A stretch of 36,873 bases of DNA from Nitrososphaeraceae archaeon (GTDB lineage: Archaea > Thermoproteota > Nitrososphaeria > Nitrososphaerales > Nitrososphaeraceae). The stretch covers positions 1 through 36,873 of the forward strand of contig WHTU01000031.1 of NCBI GenBank assembly GCA_009377575.1, given 5' to 3'. A program made the translations under genes and the position numbers. The notes below the pieces were generated by a model. The model was not told the DNA's origin and made no database searches. It saw only the letters and a list, made by a program, of their open reading frames with translations. Shown here piece by piece: positions 13,285-36,873 of the stretch; the first letter of the stretch is position 1, and each line of letters begins with the position of its first letter.

Positions 13285-14424
13285 TCAAAAGTACCTAATT
13301 ATATTATAGTAGTTGTCTCTTTCACATGGTCTATACCCTATCTGCCTTATGGACTCTATTATCTTGCTTGCTGATAATTCTGTTGACCTTGCCCCTGTAG
13401 CACTAACAACTTCTTCTCCGATCAGAGTCCCTCCGAAATCATCTGCTCCATAATTCAAGGCCAGCTGAGCCATTCCTACACCGTTGGTTAACCATGAAGA
13501 CTGCAAATGATCAATCAAACTGTAGAAGACTATCCTAGAGATCGCGATCATTTTTAGAAGCCCTGATCCTCCTGAAGAATACCTCACAGAACCGTCAGAT
13601 TGCATTTCAGTTTTATTGGGTTCGAAACTCCAGGGTATAAATGACATAAAACCGTGCGTTTTTTCCTGTAATCTCGCGATTAGGAGTAGATGATTCGCCC
13701 TCTGTTCGGTTGTCTCAACTGTGCCGTACATCATTGTAGCGGATGACCTAATGTCCAAGCTATGAGCCTCCTCCATGATTCTCAACCATTCGTGACTCTT
13801 AATTTTCAACGGACTAATTGCTGATTTTACTTCATCGTCAAGTATCTCTGCACCGGCACCGGGAAGTGAATCAAGTCCAGCCAGCTTTAATCTATGAAGG
13901 ATTTCTTTTGTGGTGCTCCTCTCTACTCTCGCTATCATATCTATTTCGGATGCAGAAAGGCCGTGGATACCAATCTTAGGATGCCGCTTTTTTATTTCTC
14001 TGAATACTTCTTCATAGTACTCGATCCTAAGATTTGGATTGTGACCACCTTGAATAAGAATTTGAGTGATGCCATACGCCTCCTTAGCCATGATTACACG
14101 CTCAAGTACCTGCTTTAGAGAGAGAGTGTATGATTCAGAATGACCTGGAGGTCTATAGAAAGCACAGAATTTGCAATACGTTACACATACGTTAGTATAA
14201 TTGAGTATTATATTATTAACAAAGCTGGCATTGTTCCCAAATAATTTATTGCGCAAATGATTGGCCGATATACCAAGAGAATAAATATCGTCAGATTCCA
14301 AAAGTCTAAGGCAATCGCTCAAGTTAAGGCGACTCCCATTTAGAACGTTATATACAATATCTGAAATATCCGACTTGTTGATCAAGTTTAGAGCAAATGC
14401 AGCCAAGCTATTCACTATATACAT
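13285..14424 (-). CDS. mqnC: Cyclic dehypoxanthinyl futalosine synthase (MqnC), radical SAM
   Basis: MqnC cyclises dehypoxanthinyl futalosine in the futalosine route to menaquinone. The radical-SAM cluster motif is Cys80-x3-Cys84-x2-Cys87 in YTNVCVTYCKFCAFYRPPGH, which is the MqnC version (Phe-Tyr-Arg-Pro). QGGHNP (about 125), GLSASEI (about 158), SLPGAGAEI (about 190) and the C-terminal YRPCERDNYY match the MqnC/MqnE/CofH superfamily, and RDxxYN is typical of MqnC. At 379 residues the length is normal. It is divergent from mqnE across about 250 bp, so the two genes share an upstream region. Confidence 0.9.
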   Translation of the reverse strand: MYIVNSLAAFALNLINKSDISDIVYNVLNGSRLNLSDCLRLLESDDIYSLGISANHLRNKLFGNNASFVNNIILNYTNVCVTYCKFCAFYRPPGHSESYTLSLKQVLERVIMAKEAYGITQILIQGGHNPNLRIEYYEEVFREIKKRHPKIGIHGLSASEIDMIARVERSTTKEILHRLKLAGLDSLPGAGAEILDDEVKSAISPLKIKSHEWLRIMEEAHSLDIRSSATMMYGTVETTEQRANHLLLIARLQEKTHGFMSFIPWSFEPNKTEMQSDGSVRYSSGGSGLLKMIAISRIVFYSLIDHLQSSWLTNGVGMAQLALNYGADDFGGTLIGEEVVSATGARSTELSASKIIESIRQIGYRPCERDNYYNIIRYF

Positions 14425-14673
14425 GATATGTGGATAAATAATGCTATTTATTCGTTACAAGCCTCGATTTGACGATTCACGAAACGAAATACCTTTGTCT
14501 CAATTATCTTTTTCTGCTGTCAGCCTAATTCGGGGTATAACTAAGAATCACTTTAGAATTCAACCAATGCATCCACACTTTAAATCTACCTTTTTAGATC
14601 AATTTTGAAAAATGCAAAAGAAAGAAATGAGAATTGTCTGAACAATCTTTTGTCCCCATTTGAAAGCTGATCA

Positions 14674-15819
14674 TTGCATAGGTTTTATATTGATATTCGC
14701 AGAGATAAGTCAGATAGATTGCTACAAGGTATTGAAAGAGTAACCCCTGCACTCGAGAAGGCGATGGCAGGCGAAGAATTGTCATATGATGATGGAATCC
14801 AACTCATGAGAGAAGAGAACCTATTCTTACTGGGAGCAGCGGCAGATAGTTTACGCAAGAAAAACAGCGGAAATACGGTAACATTCGTTTGTTCGTACTA
14901 TCTCAATTATACGAATATCTGTGCCGCAAGTTGTCCATTATGTGCTTTCTATAGAAAGGGTCAAGAGGCAGACGCTTACACGCTTACCATCGAGCAACTC
15001 CTCGCAAGGGCCAGGATAGCAGTGAATGATTTGGGAGCCACAGAATTGCACATAGTTGGAGGGTTTCATCCGAAATTGGGGCTTGATTACTATGAACGTA
15101 TGATCATCTCCATTAAGAAGGAATTCCCTCATGTATGTATAAAAGCACTCACGCCAGCTGAAATCTTTTTCATATCCAAGCTAACCAGGAATTCCGTAAA
15201 GGAGGTATTAAGTAGATTGAAAGATTCCGGACTAGATGCATTACCAGGGGGAGGTGCAGAAATTTTCCACGAGCAATCAAGGAATTTGATTGTAAGAGGT
15301 AAATGTTCCGGAGAGGAATGGCTTGACACCGCTCGTCAAGCTCACGAAATAGGGCTAAGGAGCAATTGTACGATGCTCTTTGGCCATATAGAGAAACCTG
15401 AACACATTGTAGATCACATTATTAGGATCCGAGAGTTAAACAAGGATACTAACGGCTTCACTACATTCATCCCACTAAAATTTAGCCTAGAAAATACCGA
15501 ATTGGAGCAGAAGCATATGATTCAAAGAGAAAGTCCCTCGACATATGACCTGAGAGTTATTGCGGTCTCAAGGATCCTATTATCTGACGTACTAAACAAT
15601 ATCTCTGTATATTGGATAGCACTTGGAAAGAAGCTAGCTCAAGTCGCTCTTCATTACGGTGGCAACGACTTAGTCGGGACAGCGTTTTCAGAGGAGATAT
15701 TCAAAGCAACAGGAAAGCATAATGTAACTTCAACTGAGGAGCTGATTAATCTAATTAATGAGATTAACAGACAACCTGCTCAACGAGATACATTTTTCAA
15801 CGTTCTCAGACGTTTTTAA
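14674..15819 (+). CDS. mqnE: Aminofutalosine synthase (MqnE), radical SAM
   Basis: MqnE joins the MqnA product to S-adenosylmethionine in menaquinone synthesis. The cluster motif is Cys83-x3-Cys87-x2-Cys90 in YTNICAASCPLCAFYRK. IVGGFHPKL, ALTPAEI and ALPGGGAEIF follow, the Ala-Leu-Thr-Pro and His-Pro forms being characteristic of MqnE. FIPLKF and the C-terminal QPAQRDTFF complete the family pattern. It uses a TTG start at 14674. A TTTAAAT element near 14578-14584 is a likely TATA box. It is divergent from mqnC and convergent with the mqnA/mqnD-family gene. Confidence 0.9.
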   Translation: MHRFYIDIRRDKSDRLLQGIERVTPALEKAMAGEELSYDDGIQLMREENLFLLGAAADSLRKKNSGNTVTFVCSYYLNYTNICAASCPLCAFYRKGQEADAYTLTIEQLLARARIAVNDLGATELHIVGGFHPKLGLDYYERMIISIKKEFPHVCIKALTPAEIFFISKLTRNSVKEVLSRLKDSGLDALPGGGAEIFHEQSRNLIVRGKCSGEEWLDTARQAHEIGLRSNCTMLFGHIEKPEHIVDHIIRIRELNKDTNGFTTFIPLKFSLENTELEQKHMIQRESPSTYDLRVIAVSRILLSDVLNNISVYWIALGKKLAQVALHYGGNDLVGTAFSEEIFKATGKHNVTSTEELINLINEINRQPAQRDTFFNVLRRF

Positions 15820-15877
15820 TTAGTTTTTGATAACTTTTTACTACAATTATGAGATCTTGAAATAGTAAACATGTACT

Positions 15878-16708
15878 CTATATGATCAAACTTGAAATAT
15901 TTTCCTTCAATATTCCTTTATCAGATGCCAACTTAAACATTTTCTTAATAGATGTAAGACCTTCGGTTCCCATATCTACTGTCAGCTTGTTTACGTACAT
16001 ACCTATGAATTTGCTGATCACGGCTCTGGCCTGACCTCTGCTATACATCATGGCATAGTCCAATGCGTCCTCAAAATGGTTAAGCCCATATAAGATAGAA
16101 CTTCTAAACAAATTCTCAAATTCTTGTATCTGGAAGTTAGACATGGTTTCTGAACTGGCCACGTTTATTCCAAGTGGAACTGCAAGACCATTAGTAAGAA
16201 CATTCCACCAACTTCCCAGGTCTAGGACCTTTAAAAGACCAAATGTCTCATAAGTTATCTGCCCCTCATGAATTACTAAACCAGCTTCCACCTCTCCATC
16301 CTTTACAATTGTTGGTATCGTGTGAAATGGCATCTGGACGTTAGGGTAGTTCCCTAGCGCAATCCTTGAAATCAGGTATGCTGAGGTCATTCTTCCGGGT
16401 ACGGCAATCTTGGTGTGACCAAGTTCAGAAATAGTAAATCTTTTCTTGGAAATAATCACTGGACCATAATTAAGCCCAAAACTGGCACCACAGGGCAATA
16501 TCACATAATTTCTCAAGTATGCATATGCATGTGCTGAGATCGCTGTGACGTCAAGTTCATGGTTCAATGCCCTCTTGTTAAGGGTTTCAATATCCTCTAT
16601 TACGTGTTTGATCTCAAATGCAGGATTATTCACCTTGCCTGATGCAATTCCATAAAACATGAATGCGTCATCAGCGTCGGGAGTATGACCTAATCTTAAT
16701 TCGACCAC
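15878..16708 (-). CDS. mqnD: MqnA/MqnD-family protein, probably 1,4-dihydroxy-6-naphthoate synthase
   Basis: The 276 residues have the periplasmic-binding-protein-like fold of the VitK2_biosynth family. The opening RLGHTPDADDAFMFYGIASG corresponds to the substrate-binding loop of the MqnD-like branch. ISAHAYAYL (about 58-66), YGPVIISKK, AVPGRMTSAYL and VIHEGQITY follow the family order. MqnD cleaves cyclic dehypoxanthinyl futalosine to dihydroxynaphthoate; MqnA (chorismate dehydratase) is the alternative, as the two share the fold. Length and motif favour MqnD. It converges on mqnE with a 58-bp gap. Confidence 0.7.
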   Translation of the reverse strand: MVELRLGHTPDADDAFMFYGIASGKVNNPAFEIKHVIEDIETLNKRALNHELDVTAISAHAYAYLRNYVILPCGASFGLNYGPVIISKKRFTISELGHTKIAVPGRMTSAYLISRIALGNYPNVQMPFHTIPTIVKDGEVEAGLVIHEGQITYETFGLLKVLDLGSWWNVLTNGLAVPLGINVASSETMSNFQIQEFENLFRSSILYGLNHFEDALDYAMMYSRGQARAVISKFIGMYVNKLTVDMGTEGLTSIKKMFKLASDKGILKENISSLII

Positions 16709-16889: not shown

Positions 16890-17508
16890 ATGGATCAGAA
16901 AATCCTCAATTCACAGGTAGTAATACATAAACTCTTGTCACTCAAACTCAAAGTCGGGTTGGAAAGCTTTGGAGAGATTATACGAATATGACTCTAGCTT
17001 CGAAGATGGCAAGGGATATCTTCTCAATCATGCCAGTTCCAAAGTACGACTCATAATTATGTACGTCGACTTAGTTGGTTCTACGAATACGAGCATGACC
17101 TTGCCGGTCGACAAACTCGTTACCATTATACGAGCGCTTTCCTATGAAGTGACCTCTGTAATACAGAGCCATGGAGGGTACGTATTAAAGTATGGTAGTG
17201 ATGCAGTTATTGAATTATTTCCTTCAAGTTCTGATAGGATGATCGTTGCATGCAAAAATTCGGTTAAATGTGCTCGGTCTATCTTGATGTGATTAAAAAT
17301 GGAATTAACCCAATATTGAATCAATATGACTACCCTGAGTTCAGCGTAAGATTAAGCATTGACGAAGGAGAGAATGTAGTTGTACTTTATGGACAAGACA
17401 AAAGTTCTTCGACCCAAAGACACGCTATGTCCTAACTATCAGTAATAGCGTCGTGGCTGTCTACGTGTGCCTGCATGCTTTCCGAGTTAGTATAGAATAG
17501 CTCATAGT
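16890..17508 (+). pseudogene. Frameshifted class III nucleotidyl cyclase
   Basis: The frame from ATG 16890 (MDQKILNSQVVIHKLL) shifts near 16965 into a segment of about 107 residues. That segment carries the cyclase core: IIMYVDLVGSTNTSMTLP with the first metal-binding Asp, then SHGGYVLKYGSDAVIELFP with the second Asp. Near 17289 the frame shifts again to DVIKNGINPILNQYD and VRLSIDEGENVVVLYG, the next cyclase strands, and then breaks up. At least three lesions are present. No full catalytic domain can be made, so loss of activity is inferred. Confidence 0.65.
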
Positions 17509-17520
17509 CAATTCACGCAA

Positions 17521-18426
17521 TTGAATTATAAGTATCTAAAGCGAAATAGCATCCTCGAACCTATAATGAGGTTGCCATTCAAGGATACCAAGAACAGTAA
17601 TGTTCAAGAGATAAATTCTATATTCTATCGCGTCGGAGAGTGTTTTATTCGCTCTATATCTCCTAGCATCTCGATGCGGGAGGTAAATGTTATGCTGGCA
17701 GATGGAACCGTAACGCAGGCGCCTACATTCGATATTGGAAGTGTGACGAAATTCTATGAAAACTTGATACGATCCCTATCTGGGTGGCAAAGTTTTGGCA
17801 TATCCAGGTCACAAATCGAGGATTTAAATAGGATCTATTGTGAATTGAGGAAATCTGTGGGCAAGTATGATGTCAAAGGATATTTTGGAATTCAGTTTCA
17901 TGCCCTACCATTCTATCAGGTTAACAAGAAAGTGCTTGACGTGCAAAGAAACCTCAGACGATTGGAAAATGAAAGCATCCAATCTTATTCTCAGATCTCG
18001 CAGCAAGCGGATAATGTGATTAGAGAGGAATTATCATATAGGGGGCTTGAAAACCTCAGCGAGGAAGAGGTATTCAAGAATTTACTTGAAAATGAAGGGC
18101 TCTATGGTGATTTAGTGAAGAAAGCCGAGACAATTGAGAGCGGATTCCCTCAATACCTTGATATTGATTATCAAAAGAAACAATTATTCAAAGAATTGGA
18201 GGACCTTGTAATAGAGCTATATCAAGTTTCACCGGTGCTGATTGATTACAATAAGTTAATGCAGGGGGATGCTGGAGTTGCTTTGTATGTTGATGTTGGG
18301 ACTATTAAGAATGAGAAAACGGGAGCAATTGATCCTTTTGTGAATACTAAACAGATGTCTGCGGTCCACTCAGAACAGATCATAACAGCGCTTCTAGAGG
18401 TGCAAGATGCAATGGATCGAATATGA
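17521..18426 (+). CDS. Unrecognised soluble protein (301 aa)
   Basis: The frame can start at TTG 17521, but ATG 17566 (MRLPFKDTKN) is more likely. Residues about 40-110 look mixed alpha/beta (SISMREVNVMLADGTVTQAPTF). From about 145 to 240 the sequence is highly charged and helical, with coiled-coil-like composition. A short DAGVALYVDVGTIKNEK strand region follows near the C-terminus. I recognise no domain and no catalytic motif. It lies between a dead cyclase gene and the ComA-like gene on the same strand, with 255 bp to the latter. Confidence 0.6.
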   Translation: MNYKYLKRNSILEPIMRLPFKDTKNSNVQEINSIFYRVGECFIRSISPSISMREVNVMLADGTVTQAPTFDIGSVTKFYENLIRSLSGWQSFGISRSQIEDLNRIYCELRKSVGKYDVKGYFGIQFHALPFYQVNKKVLDVQRNLRRLENESIQSYSQISQQADNVIREELSYRGLENLSEEEVFKNLLENEGLYGDLVKKAETIESGFPQYLDIDYQKKQLFKELEDLVIELYQVSPVLIDYNKLMQGDAGVALYVDVGTIKNEKTGAIDPFVNTKQMSAVHSEQIITALLEVQDAMDRI

Positions 18427-18681
18427 CCCCAGCTTTTTCCTGCTCAGTCAGTAAGAGATATGTTACATTAGATTGGTATTGCGCTAAATCCAGAAAATGA
18501 GAATCCGATCTAACATACGAAAACGACATAGTTGTCATGAATAACACCCTTAGGAGGCTATGCTTCACTACCTTTGTGTATTCCTGTGTTGTGTAGCCTG
18601 CCTATATGCGATTATTGATGTATAGATCAAGTGAGCAACTTCCATATATGTAATGAAGCCTAATGAATACTCTTAGTTAAG

Positions 18682-19668
18682 ATGCTTGATGATATAATAA
18701 AGGATCGAATCGACTCGAAAAAACCGCGAGAGGAAGGGCTTACTTACATGATAGATAGGCTACCGAGCATAGATACCGAAGGTATTGAGACTCTCTCGCC
18801 GATAGTAGATATGGTCAAGATCTATGGAGCATATCCACTTTTGATTCCCGATATTATTCTCGAAAAGAAAATAGGGATTTACCACAAGCATGACGTTCAA
18901 GTGTCGCTTGGAAGTACAATAACAGAGTACGCAATTATTGAAAATGTATTTGAGAGGTTCATAACTGAGGCTGCCAGAATAGGCATTGACGTTATAGAAA
19001 TAAGTGAAAACAATCGTGATTTGAGTTTGGACGAAAAAGAAAAAATCGTTAACGCTATTGAATCAAAGGACATGCGGTACTTGTGGAAAATCGGACGGAA
19101 GGATCCTAGGCATCAGCTGACCGTGGAGCAGATTCTTTCAAGAACTGAACAAAGCATCAAGCTCGGTAGTAACAAGGTTATTTTGGAGGCAAATGAAGGG
19201 ATAGGTGTGGGAATTTACGACGAACGCGGAGCGGTAAAATGGCACCTTATGGGCGCTCTCACATCAAAATTTCCTCCGAGAGCATTCGTTTTTGAAGCCC
19301 CCCTTGAATCACAACAATCAGCGCTTATAGCTGAGTTTGGACAGCGAGTAAACTTGGCAGAAGTTAGGCCAGATCTGCTTATGTCTGTCGAAACACAAAG
19401 AAGAGGTTTAATGTCAAAAGCAGCATACGGAGTCTCTTACTTTCGAAAGGATCCTGAAGGCGGTCCTGCATCCAAATTTATCTATTACATAATCAAAACC
19501 AAATACCCTGTGGAACAGAGTGAATTGATCCGGATTAGTCATTTACCTAGGAGAACAATTCAGAATGCCATTGAAGATCTTAAGGAACAAGGATTGGTTC
19601 TAGAGAAAAACAGCCTTGATGACACGCGACGGAAGGCCTATTATCCAGTACTTTCTGAATGGCTCTAA
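18682..19668 (+). CDS. Phosphosulfolactate synthase (ComA)-like protein with C-terminal winged helix
   Basis: Residues 1-250 follow the ComA TIM-barrel: KPREEGLTYMID (14-25), a VDMVK strand (42-46), VQVSLGSTITEYA (72-84), IDVIEIS (102-108), GRKDPRHQ (138-145), SNKVILEANEG (163-173) and FVFEAPLESQQ (202-212). ComA adds sulfite to phosphoenolpyruvate in coenzyme M synthesis. Several expected residues differ here, for example IYGAYPL where ComA has a Gly-Trp-Gly-Thr-type loop, so the reaction is not assured. Residues about 265-328 are a MarR-like winged helix (EQSELIRISHLPRRTIQNAI). It lies 260 bp upstream of phaC on the same strand. Confidence 0.75.
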   Translation: MLDDIIKDRIDSKKPREEGLTYMIDRLPSIDTEGIETLSPIVDMVKIYGAYPLLIPDIILEKKIGIYHKHDVQVSLGSTITEYAIIENVFERFITEAARIGIDVIEISENNRDLSLDEKEKIVNAIESKDMRYLWKIGRKDPRHQLTVEQILSRTEQSIKLGSNKVILEANEGIGVGIYDERGAVKWHLMGALTSKFPPRAFVFEAPLESQQSALIAEFGQRVNLAEVRPDLLMSVETQRRGLMSKAAYGVSYFRKDPEGGPASKFIYYIIKTKYPVEQSELIRISHLPRRTIQNAIEDLKEQGLVLEKNSLDDTRRKAYYPVLSEWL

Positions 19669-19867
19669 TCTTTTCTATTGTTATTTTCAGAACATTTAGT
19701 TGACGTGCGTGAATGTTGAATGAAGTGAATCACATTGACCTGCCGCTGCGTTCCCAACTCTAAACCATGAACAGCGCTTAATTTTAAATACTTCCTGATT
19801 AAGGTCCTCACGCCCAATACTTCTTGCAACTCAAATACGCTTTATCCACCTCAATACAACATCTATA

Positions 19868-19880
19868 AGTTTTTAAATCT
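19868..19880 (+). promoter_or_regulatory. Probable phaC promoter (TATA box)
   Basis: AGTTTTTAAATCT is the best TATA-like element in the 260 bp upstream of phaC. Transcription would start near 19900, leaving a leader of about 25-30 nt that contains a GAAGGAGA Shine-Dalgarno-like block (19896-19903). That block is further from the GTG than usual. Confidence 0.4.
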
Positions 19881-19928
19881 CAGCAGTAAAAATTAGAAGG
19901 AGACAGTTACGTAAGCAGGCGAATATTT

Positions 19929-21122
19929 GTGACCAAACAAGAAGAAACTACCACTGAACAGAGAGTTGAACCCGGTGACGAGGCACTAAAGTTGCCTAAG
20001 TCCAATCACGATCAACCGACTACTGACCCGGATTCGTCGCTAAATTTCGCGCAGGAATTAGTAGACTATTCTAAGCGTTTGGAAACATGTCGAAGGACGC
20101 TCCATCTGGCTGGTAAGACAATAAAAGTAGGAACTACACCCAGTGAAATACTACATGAAACCCGGCATTATACTCTCTTACATTATCGGCCAATGACGAA
20201 CAAGACTTTTTCGACCCCTATACTAGTCGTATATGCCCTTATGAATAAATCGTACATACTTGATCTCCAGCCTGGAAAAAGCTGGATCCAAAATCTTCTT
20301 CGCCAAGGGTTTGATGTATATCTGATTAATTGGAACGCTCCATCCTCTATAGATAAATACACTTCCTTTGATGATTACGTAAATTACTACTTAGATCGTT
20401 GTGTTGGAATTGTCGAGAAAAAAAGGGACGTAGAAAAGGTAACTTTACATGGTTATTGCCTTGGTGCTACGATGTCAGTAATGTATACAGCAACACACCA
20501 GGAAAAAGTTAGAAATCTAGTAACTATTGCCCCCATAATAGATGCCGATCAAGACTCAACAGTCCTCGCAAATTTTGCCAAGAACATAGATGTCGATAAA
20601 CTTGTAGATACATTAGGGAATTTTACTTCTGAACAACTTTACGCTTGCTATTCGATGCTTAAACCCTTTAAGCAGGGGGTAAACAAATACATTAACTTAG
20701 TCCAAAATATTGACAATAAAAAGTTCGTAGAGAACTTTCTGGGAGTTGAGAAATGGCTTTACGATACTCCCCCTATTGCAGGTGAAACATTTAGGCAGTG
20801 GATAAAAGACATTTACCAAAATAACTTGCTTGCAAAAAACGAAATGCGAATAAAAGAAATTTCAGGCAGGGACAATTATGTTACAGATGATCATAATATT
20901 ATAGATCTATCCAAGGTCACAGTACCACTTCTAAATATAGTCGCTGAAGAGGACCACTTGGTTGCGCCGGCGTCCAGCGCTGCATTGAATGACTTGGTCT
21001 CGAGTAAAGATAAACGTTTGATGAGATTTCACACTGGTCATGTAGGGCTTATTGCGAGCAGCTATTCTCAAAATAATGTTTTGCCGAAAGTTGGCCAATG
21101 GATAAAATCTAGATCCCAATGA
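19929..21122 (+). CDS. phaC: Class III poly(3-hydroxyalkanoate) synthase subunit PhaC
   Basis: PhaC polymerises hydroxyacyl-CoA into PHA storage granules. The 397-residue alpha/beta-hydrolase has the lipase-box Cys177 (HGYCLGATMS), Asp342 (AEEDHLV) and His371 (TGHVGL), which form the catalytic triad. LINWNAP and the Tyr-Trp/Asp-containing cap sequence also fit. The length matches class III enzymes, which normally need a PhaE partner. No phaE is seen next to it. The first about 40 residues are acidic and low-complexity, probably disordered. The start is GTG at 19929. Confidence 0.93.
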   Translation: MTKQEETTTEQRVEPGDEALKLPKSNHDQPTTDPDSSLNFAQELVDYSKRLETCRRTLHLAGKTIKVGTTPSEILHETRHYTLLHYRPMTNKTFSTPILVVYALMNKSYILDLQPGKSWIQNLLRQGFDVYLINWNAPSSIDKYTSFDDYVNYYLDRCVGIVEKKRDVEKVTLHGYCLGATMSVMYTATHQEKVRNLVTIAPIIDADQDSTVLANFAKNIDVDKLVDTLGNFTSEQLYACYSMLKPFKQGVNKYINLVQNIDNKKFVENFLGVEKWLYDTPPIAGETFRQWIKDIYQNNLLAKNEMRIKEISGRDNYVTDDHNIIDLSKVTVPLLNIVAEEDHLVAPASSAALNDLVSSKDKRLMRFHTGHVGLIASSYSQNNVLPKVGQWIKSRSQ

Positions 21123-31636: not shown

Positions 31637-31886
31637 CTGCAGGGGGGACCAGAACAGCACCAAATGCTACGGTTGAACGGAAGTTAGCGGCCGAGAACAA
31701 GTCATGTGTGGTTTGGAGAGAGCTAGTACTCCTGCTTTATCCGACTATCGAATCTACCACAATTACATACGCCCACATGGGTGGTTCGAAAATATAACAC
31801 CGGCTGAGAAATGTGGAATCACTGTCGATGGTGAGAACAAGAGGAGAAGGTTGATGCAGAATGTTCAGAGAAAGTGGCGTTCAATG
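31637..31886 (+). pseudogene. IS transposase remnant A (C-terminal part)
   Basis: Translation in joined frames gives RLQGDQN, then (after a shift) REQVMCGLERASTP, YRIYHNYIRPHGWFENITPA, and EKCGITVDGENK-type sequence. This is the end of the same transposase as at 35858-36722. At least one frameshift and an internal stop separate the parts, and the catalytic domain is absent. The fragment abuts the start of the 31942 membrane-protein gene. Confidence 0.6.
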
Positions 31887-31941
31887 AATAAATTAGCATT
31901 TGAAATTCATAATCTCAGATTTGGAAGCAAAAACTGTAATT

Positions 31942-32556
31942 ATGATAGTTATAATACTAATTGCTTCTGCTCTAGGAATAGGGATAGCCATTGGTTTGTC
32001 TTACGCTGAAGTAATAAATCCTCAACCATATGCCACGTCAACAATCTCATGGATTGCTGCGGGGATCGGTGTGATAACGTTGTTCTGGGGTCTTGGCAAA
32101 AGTGTATTAGAATCACTTGGGAAACCGCGACTAGAATATGGTAGAAGATCGACTAAGAGTTATGGACATGAAACCCATAATGGCAGATATTCTTACATCA
32201 ATTATCTTTTGGAAATAAAGAACAAAGCCCATGGCATAGAAGCTGAAGATTGTAAAGCTACTCTTAGTGTACCAAATACACAAATCGATAGACAATACGT
32301 AGTGTGGGAAAGTGGGGAGACAAGTATTCCGATCGGTCATGATGAATTATTAAAATTATTTACAGTACGAGAATTCTATGTAGATAATAAATTAGATTCG
32401 AAGAAAATTCTTTTTCATATTCATGAAATGGAGTATGCTGAGGTAGACAACAAATCTATATTCGTAAAAATTCAATCAAAAAATGCAGAGTGTCCGTCTG
32501 AAGCGTATAGCGCCAAGATTCAAGATGTGATTGCAACTAGCATGTCCAGGAGTTGA
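31942..32556 (+). CDS. Two-helix membrane protein with extramembrane beta-rich domain
   Basis: The frame is open from TTG 31900, but ATG 31942 (MIVIILIASALGIGI) is preferred because the upstream part adjoins a dead transposase fragment. Two transmembrane helices (about 1-23 and 33-52) are followed by a soluble domain of about 150 residues with alternating strands (SYINYLLEIKNKAHGIEAED, KATLSVPNT, ILFHIHEMEYAEVDNK, SIFVKIQSKNAE). The strand pattern resembles an immunoglobulin-like or jelly-roll domain, which is inferred only from its shape. The family is unrecognised. Confidence 0.55.
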   Translation: MIVIILIASALGIGIAIGLSYAEVINPQPYATSTISWIAAGIGVITLFWGLGKSVLESLGKPRLEYGRRSTKSYGHETHNGRYSYINYLLEIKNKAHGIEAEDCKATLSVPNTQIDRQYVVWESGETSIPIGHDELLKLFTVREFYVDNKLDSKKILFHIHEMEYAEVDNKSIFVKIQSKNAECPSEAYSAKIQDVIATSMSRS

Positions 32557-35633: not shown

Positions 35634-35895
35634 TATTGTAAAAAATTGGATGTAGATTGAGATATAATAAGCTATCCAATCGTTTTTGAAATAAGTCTTG
35701 GGTTTTTTTATCTAATGCCCAATCGCGTATTAAATCTTCGTTTTCGAGAAAATATTGTCTATCTACAACTATTAGGTCATTACAATCTGTCAGGTCGAGA
35801 AATGGCTCTTTCCTAATTGGAAAGTTTTTGCCAGCTTCGAGCCCTCCTACAAACACTCTATGTATCTTTCTGGTCATCTTTCTCCCTCTTTGCAT
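35608..35895 (-). CDS. Hypothetical protein overlapping transposase end (95 aa), tentative
   Basis: The frame has protein-like composition (RKIHRVFVGGLEAGKNFPIR, FLDLTDCNDLIVVDRQYFLE, LIRDWALDKKTQDLFQKRLD). ATG 35877 (MTRKIHRVF) is a better start than ATG 35895. Its 5' end overlaps the 3' end of the transposase gene by about 38 bp at most, and its 3' end overlaps the next zinc-ribbon gene by 26 bp. Whether it is an IS passenger or a host gene cut by the insertion is unclear. Confidence 0.4.
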   Translation of the reverse strand: MQRGRKMTRKIHRVFVGGLEAGKNFPIRKEPFLDLTDCNDLIVVDRQYFLENEDLIRDWALDKKTQDLFQKRLDSLLYLNLHPIFYNNGCDIDVS

Positions 35896-36873
35896 TTTGG
35901 ATCAGCGTTACCCATTTGTTTTCGCCTTCAACTTTAATTCCGCATTTCTCAGCCGGAGTTAGGTTTGCAATGCCTTCATGTAATCGCATGTAATTATGAT
36001 AAATCTGATAACCGGGTAAGATCGACGTATTAACTCTCTCCAATCCCAGCATAACCTTTTCACGGCCACGAACTTCCCCGTTTAGACGTTCCATCTTGTT
36101 ATTGTTGTGATCTCCATGCAAACTGATGTGTCTAATGTGTCGACTTCGTGGCCTTCTGCGGTTAAAAAATTCATCTTTGAATGCCTGATTCTAGTTGGGT
36201 GCACCATCATTAATTAGCACATTCGGTCGTTTACCTGTGACCTCTTTAGCTTTTTTGAATAACGGTCTTACATCAGCTAGGTATTTAGTTGCAGAAACTT
36301 GTTGAGCAATCCAGAATCGCGTTTGATCGTCCATGATTGCATAGAGATATTTCAAGTTCCCGCGAAACTTAACATATAACTCATCTGTTCTCCACGCGTT
36401 ACCTAACATCGGTAGCTTTATCTTCTCAACGTAGCTCTGCATCAGGATAACATATTTCCGAATCCATTTGTAAACCGTGACATGACTTACATGAACCCCA
36501 CGTAACTTCAGAAATCGCATAACATTTTCTAAATGATTCTCCAGTAAAATAGAGTTGCATTGCTGACGTAATCGCATCAGCCGGAGCCCGCATTTTCTCG
36601 AACCCAATATTAAATGAGAATCGTTTACCACAATCTTTGCACAAATATCTTTGAATGTCATATTGTTTGTTCCGCCTTATAGCTTTTTTGACGGTATGCT
36701 CCGAGTTACAGTAGCTGCACACCAGTTGTGATATAGGTTGAATGACAACTTCCTGTTGTACAGTCTCACGAATAGCAAAACTAAATTCGACTGCGTAAAT
36801 GTGTTTGCAGCGTATACCACGAAACTTGTGATCGGCACATGAGCATACCCAACCAATTTTTGTCAGGCGAACC
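35858..36873 (-). pseudogene. SWIM-finger DDE transposase (IS6-like), broken, runs off right edge
   Basis: In minus-strand order: a SWIM-type finger (IGWVCSCADHKF..CKHIY, at the window edge), a zinc ribbon (CSYCNSEH...CKDCGKRF), an HTH (VHVSHVTVYKWIRKYV), then the DDE catalytic core with Asp in AWRTDELYVKF, Asp in LINDGAPN and Glu in KMERLNGE, and a C-terminal part ending TPAEKCGIKVEGENKW. Two lesions are seen: a one-base shift near 36530-36535 and an in-frame TAG at 36191-36193. It is therefore inactive as written. The left inverted repeat lies beyond the window. Confidence 0.75.

Follow-up and report, generated by a model that had tools for sequence, protein, structure and literature searches.

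A ComA-like barrel fused to a winged helix in Nitrososphaeraceae, a candidate enzyme-derived regulator of sulfur acquisition

The window, that is, the whole stretch of 36,873 nucleotides analysed here from a Nitrososphaeraceae archaeon, carries on its forward strand a real reading frame for 328 residues with an ATG start, followed by the gene of a class III PHA synthase, phaC (Table 1). The genome it belongs to (3.89 Mb, 99% complete, 380 contigs) has this gene as its single ComA gene. Other parts of the window hold futalosine-type menaquinone genes (13288-16708; MqnC/MqnE/CofH-type radical SAM and VitK2_biosynth), here in a Nitrososphaerales genome, and a truncated class III nucleotide-cyclase-like ORF (16969-17292; the label is our own reading of the ORF), which has a 255-aa version in one congener (L039:9979-10743) and is split in another (L097). 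Near the contig end we also read two translations as transposase-like fragments (31704-32006 and 35861-36661).

Table 1. Features at the fusion gene locus (positions in the window).
Feature	Position	Strand	Basis
Upstream ORF, 301 aa, adjoining the fusion gene in four congeners only	17521..18426	+	neighbour comparison
Promoter block conserved in four congeners, core AGCAACTTCNATATAKG	18630..18669	+	four-congener alignment
ComA-winged-helix fusion protein, 328 aa	18682..19668	+	ORF, Pfam, conservation in relatives, structure model
Putative sensor domain (residues 12-245), a ComA-like (beta/alpha)8 barrel	18715..19416	+	PF02679, superposition on 1qwg
C-terminal MarR-type winged helix, residues 262-322	19465..19647	+	predicted structure and structure search
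Predicted recognition helix, residues 290-302, starting inside the conserved LPRRT motif	19549..19587	+	model, conservation
Spacer between fusion gene and phaC, 260 bp	19669..19928	+	own conserved AT-rich block, alignment of four congeners
Class III PHA synthase PhaC	19929..21122	+	TIGR01836, 437.9 bits against a cut-off of 365.3

The original prediction described a ComA-like N-terminal region joined at its C-terminal end to a winged helix of MarR-like type, and our analysis confirms this, both parts being confidently predicted. Residues 12-245 matched the Pfam family ComA (PF02679) with E=9.5e-64 and 215.6 bits against a cut-off of 25.2, and an AlphaFold2 model of the fusion protein, made with 54 sequences (mean pLDDT 87.9), gave an eight-stranded barrel and then a winged helix. 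Superposition on ComA, a check suggested along with the prediction, placed the barrel on the M. jannaschii enzyme (1qwg; 1u83 is a further ComA structure) with a Z of 32.0 over 244 residues, at about 29% identity, and the C-terminus does fold as a winged helix in the model. On TIGR03849, the NCBIfam model of archaeal ComA, the protein reached 164.7 bits, below the cut-off of 280.

The modelled winged helix consists of three helices (residues 262-274, 279-286 and 290-302) and two strands (306-310 and 318-322), a wing fold of MarR-like structure. Pfam recognised it weakly, MarR_2 and HTH_11 being matched at E of about 1e-3, under their cut-offs (19.9 bits against 27 for MarR_2). Modelled separately, the last 79 residues formed a winged helix (mean pLDDT 88.9) that matched MarR structures with a Foldseek E of 1e-4 and a best Z of 11.1 (3bpv, 69 residues); RNA polymerase III winged helices were also present among its structural matches. 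The MarR dimerisation helices are absent from the model of the window protein, in which only the wing domain follows the barrel. Since winged helices can mediate protein contacts, the low Pfam scores and the RNA polymerase III matches would also suit a domain that touches proteins and not DNA, but we regard this as extremely improbable: the LPRRT helix and the basic wing are strongly conserved in the fusion family, the structures most like it belong to DNA-binding MarR proteins, and a promoter palindrome, described below, tracks the fusion gene family.

A fusion of the same length recurs in about 70 fetched loci, with the C-terminal signature GGPAxKFIYYIIKTKHPIEQxEL...LPRRTVQ, and is also found in Thermoplasmata and other Thermoproteota, so it is no assembly accident. 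Among named relatives the closest to the window protein is that of Nitrososphaerales archaeon TH526, at 96% identity. In a quick tree the proteins without a winged helix, both bacterial and methanogen, all fell on one branch (SH-aLRT 96), so that a single fusion origin, or a single loss, suffices.

The claim that several active-site segments differ from ComA could be made precise by taking ComB-linked proteins and M. jannaschii ComA as the enzyme reference set and comparing their invariant residues (M. jannaschii numbering). Six of these positions are changed in the window protein: G75S, G107N, E133K, R170N and N227E, which in the model lie at or after the ends of strands 3, 4, 5, 6 and 8, where barrels of this kind have their active site, and R244S, which lies after the last barrel helix. 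D20, K43, E79, E103, K137, E168, E205, Q211, Q212, E237 and R240 are kept, and K140 and four core acidic residues are still present. The window protein is thus like ComA in its core acidic residues and K137, and unlike it in the added winged helix, the six altered residues and the lack of ComB in its genome. G107N, E133K, R170N and N227E are common to all 24 Nitrososphaeraceae-type sequences counted. Fusion proteins from Thermoplasmata, f14 and deep Thermoproteota have nearly all enzyme residues, and for this reason early-branching members may be enzymes. At the other end, a long-branched side clade (L073, L074 and the second copy of L047) has lost many of them and retained the winged helix along with neighbouring transporter genes, which points to regulation without catalysis. 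The simplest reading of these sequences is that the barrel, at first an enzyme or an intact pocket, may have become a pure sensor in ammonia oxidisers and then decayed further in one clade.

ComB had no match in the window's own genome. Among 121 related genomes searched, ComA was present in 66 and ComB in one, which lies outside those 66, so every ComA-bearing relative sampled is devoid of ComB. Synthesis of coenzyme M or sulfolactate via ComABC is unlikely here because ComB is absent, and we rejected this pathway for the window genome, in line with the original prediction, which had argued against coenzyme M synthesis. Moreover, the protein scored below the TIGR03849 cut-off, differed at enzyme-invariant residues and came from a genome where ComB was not found, and on these three defining features we did not class it as a strict ComA. 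Fusion proteins are hits of the phosphosulfolactate synthase family, and in soil archaea they can readily be mistaken for products of coenzyme M genes, a likely annotation error.

These data also bear on a bifunctional protein, whose barrel would still convert sulfite and PEP to phosphosulfolactate, as a sink for surplus sulfite, while the winged helix regulates sulfur genes. RbkR, a riboflavin kinase that regulates riboflavin genes (PMC8305020), offers a precedent; the Thermoplasmata, f14 and deep Thermoproteota members with their nearly complete set of ComB-linked-enzyme residues would suit it, and one Thermoplasmata genome (G507, locus L189) does carry ComB. We nevertheless consider it unlikely, as R170, E133, G107 and N227 are missing from the window protein and from all 24 Nitrososphaeraceae-type sequences counted, and ComB is absent from the Nitrososphaeraceae-type genomes and from 7 of the 8 further fusion genomes in which it was sought.

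A survey of neighbouring genes in other Nitrososphaeria, also suggested with the original prediction, did reveal a conserved context for the fusion gene, but this was sulfonate uptake or sulfate assimilation and not PHA. When neighbour genes were clustered across 72 loci, just three families recurred widely: a solute-binding protein, a permease and an ABC ATPase. A gene of the SsuA/B/C families lay at most 1 kb from 42 of the 75 fusion genes in Nitrososphaeria loci, a linkage spanning 9 of 13 named genera and one unassigned locus, and the fusion gene was often divergent from the ssu transporter genes, with 31-172 bases between them. Five of the seven solute-binding proteins tested scored above the cut-off of TIGR01728 (SsuA_fam, the aliphatic sulfonate family; best 214.9 against 163.5 bits), and the closest solved relative of one neighbouring solute-binding protein is a taurine-binding protein. 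Sulfonate transporters have already been reported in cultured soil ammonia-oxidising archaea, without this regulator (PMC4129164). SsuD was rejected as the partner desulfonase, since only distant luciferase-family matches were found (best 64.9 bits against 518.2).

Sulfate assimilation genes accompany other members of the family. In a deep Nitrososphaerales locus (L052) the operon divergent to the fusion gene consists of sat, a type I phosphodiesterase gene and cysC; in Thermoplasmata the order is phosphodiesterase, cysC, sat and fusion gene in L183, and in L189 and L190 the fusion gene and cysH are divergent. Curated cut-offs were exceeded by sat and cysC of L052, by cysH of L189 and, in one of two models, by sat of L183. 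Some paralogues have no sulfur neighbour, namely the second Nitrosocosmicus copy and that of genus g8. The type I phosphodiesterase (PF01663) turns up repeatedly, either inside sat-cysC operons or close to the fusion gene (L052:11124-12530, L183:3543-4907, L187 and L196). If the barrel catalysed another reaction on PEP or a different small acid, with the winged helix as a self-regulating appendage only, retention of the equivalents of K137, E79, E103, E168, E205 and R240, beyond what a dead domain needs, would be accounted for. This is quite improbable in our view, because the most degenerate clade has lost several of those residues and still has the winged helix and transporter neighbours, and because no pathway partner recurs beside the fusion gene except the sulfur uptake and assimilation genes. 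The new ligase-like reaction on PEP raised in the original prediction likewise gained no support.

Upstream of fusion genes we found inverted repeats with the form ATATGCA-N5-TGCATAT. An open search of 4+4 gapped palindromes, with no prior pattern, ranked TATG-N9-CATA (11 of 69 fusion genes against 0 of 552 controls) and TATG-N11-CATA (15 of 69 against 2 of 552) at the top. A palindrome of the TATGCA-N5-TGCATA type occurs at -22 to -50 of 22 of 68 fusion genes and of 3 of 768 other genes from the same loci; it was seen in 8 of 13 genera, the window's not among them, and none of the control gene families shows it in more than one genus. The patterns were selected and counted on the same sequences, which inflates these figures somewhat, and selection among about 3,300 candidate palindromes is unlikely to be the full cause of an effect of this size. 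Related palindromic sites precede several ssuA genes. In fusion genes the palindrome lies on or next to the core promoter, a placement that suggests repression. Sites of the form GCA-N5-TGC in front of Thermoplasmata genes were left uncounted, as they resemble alanine codons at the protein start. When 12 genomes were scanned in full for TATGC-N7-GCATA, counts were mostly near chance by comparison with the reversed pattern, so no regulon could be read from them; one match (G027:C1:2353769) is the own promoter of a fusion gene. The second Nitrosocosmicus-type paralogue (L050, L053, L054 and L063) has a different palindrome upstream, GGTATA-N6-TATACC, and no sulfur-transport neighbour.

In the window's genus the palindrome was found in none of four members. 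The conserved block before the window gene contains an imperfect inverted repeat, TATGT-N6-GCCTA (18647-18662), which reads TAGGC-N6-GCCTA in one congener and may, as a weak candidate, be the diverged operator of this copy. Nothing convincing as a matching operator was seen before the two ssuA copies or the cysH-sat genes of the window genome. Those two ssuA copies (L116 and L117) have the upstream string AATGCACCACTAATATTGGAGAG in common. The window copy has no adjoining sulfur gene; ssuA and ssuC genes are present in the genome, unlinked to the fusion gene, and no remnant of a second fusion gene was found at their locus. In a congener (L077) a second fusion gene does stand beside ssuB-ssuC.

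The neighbour of the window copy, phaC, had raised the idea of a link to PHA, which did not hold up. Adjacency and shared direction in four congeners, and a conceivable tie of PHA to PEP/acetyl-CoA status, would fit a regulator acting locally on phaC and PHA storage. We rejected this reading as highly improbable: the arrangement is limited to those four genomes of one genus, phaC was in no other fetched fusion-gene neighbourhood, and the conserved block upstream of phaC shares no element with the promoter block of the fusion gene.

A metabolite-sensing regulator, originally suggested, as a repressor, by the enzyme-regulator fusion next to phaC, is also the role we rate as likeliest. In our reading the window protein is probably an enzyme-derived transcription factor for sulfur acquisition, an explanation at the level of the family that is applied to the window gene, given that this copy is unlinked to ssu genes. 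It would be a one-component transcription factor, with a sensor domain descended from phosphosulfolactate synthase and a MarR-type winged helix that binds DNA. The family would control its own promoter and genes supplying reduced or organic sulfur, with SsuABC-type sulfonate importers as proposed targets in Nitrososphaeria and sat/cysC/cysH as those of Thermoplasmata and of a single deep lineage within Nitrososphaerales. Because the candidate binding site overlaps the core promoter, the default action would probably be repression, altered when a ligand occupies the old active site. In the window species the gene may have moved, or been duplicated, to its site beside phaC, and as the only ComA found in the genome, away from the ssu genes, it would act in trans on the transporter genes, its putative targets.

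Sulfite is the common outcome of sulfate reduction by Sat/CysC/CysH and of sulfonate cleavage. The substrates of ComA are sulfite, acting as nucleophile, and PEP (PMC3087415). Since these are the substrates, and sulfite is where both groups of proposed target genes lead, the presumed ligand that we favour is sulfite, either by itself or together with PEP, or else a small sulfonate related to it; the choice of sulfite itself is tentative. Equally speculative is the broadest version of the proposal, in which a factor derived from phosphosulfolactate synthase and responsive to sulfite, or sulfite plus PEP, would, in two archaeal phyla, control the uptake of sulfonates as well as the assimilation of sulfate; its early members would still be enzymes, those of ammonia oxidisers pure sensors, and in one clade most of the pocket would be gone.

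Enzymes with a regulatory role are known from archaea. RbkR, described as both gene regulator and enzyme (PMC8305020), likewise joins an archaeal enzyme-type domain to an HTH and is linked to genes from the metabolic field of that enzyme; it differs in fold, in metabolite and in its N-terminal HTH, and the enzyme site is altered in the fusion proteins of ammonia-oxidiser lineages. The ThiN domain is named as part of both repressors and enzymes in the title of reference 54 of PMC8305020, and, going by that title, the archaeal ThiR/ThiN repressors resemble our family in the reuse of a biosynthetic enzyme domain as a sensor, whereas their domain is unrelated and they concern thiamine instead of sulfur. 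The fusion family has features of the RbkR/ThiR kind, with a conserved enzyme-HTH fusion and neighbours (ssu, sat, cysC and cysH) in the metabolic area of the substrate. Additionally, SurR of Thermococcales is a sulfur-responsive archaeal regulator of sulfur metabolism (PMC10746257). The fusion protein is proposed to share that role of regulating sulfur metabolism in archaea. SurR works as a redox switch in the metabolism of elemental sulfur and hydrogen, and is not known to have an enzyme-derived sensor. The bacterial CysB/Cbl regulators, which control ssu, tau and cys genes, are set apart by description as LysR-type proteins of unrelated make-up, and plant Hsa32, a ComA homologue outside coenzyme M synthesis with a role in heat stress, by having no known winged helix.

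The fusion is undescribed in the open-access literature searched, which most subscription journals lie outside; for ammonia-oxidising archaea this literature likewise gave no regulator of the assimilation of sulfonate or sulfate. The family thus provides a concrete candidate for such a regulator, with a candidate operator that is short and defined, and it would carry a stepwise record of the passage from enzyme to sensor. The window genome has a second enzyme-winged-helix fusion, in which an NAD kinase domain is followed by a C-terminal MarR-like winged helix (G000:C360:2460-2639; L119:688-1692) that is about 30-37% identical to the winged helix of the ComA fusion.
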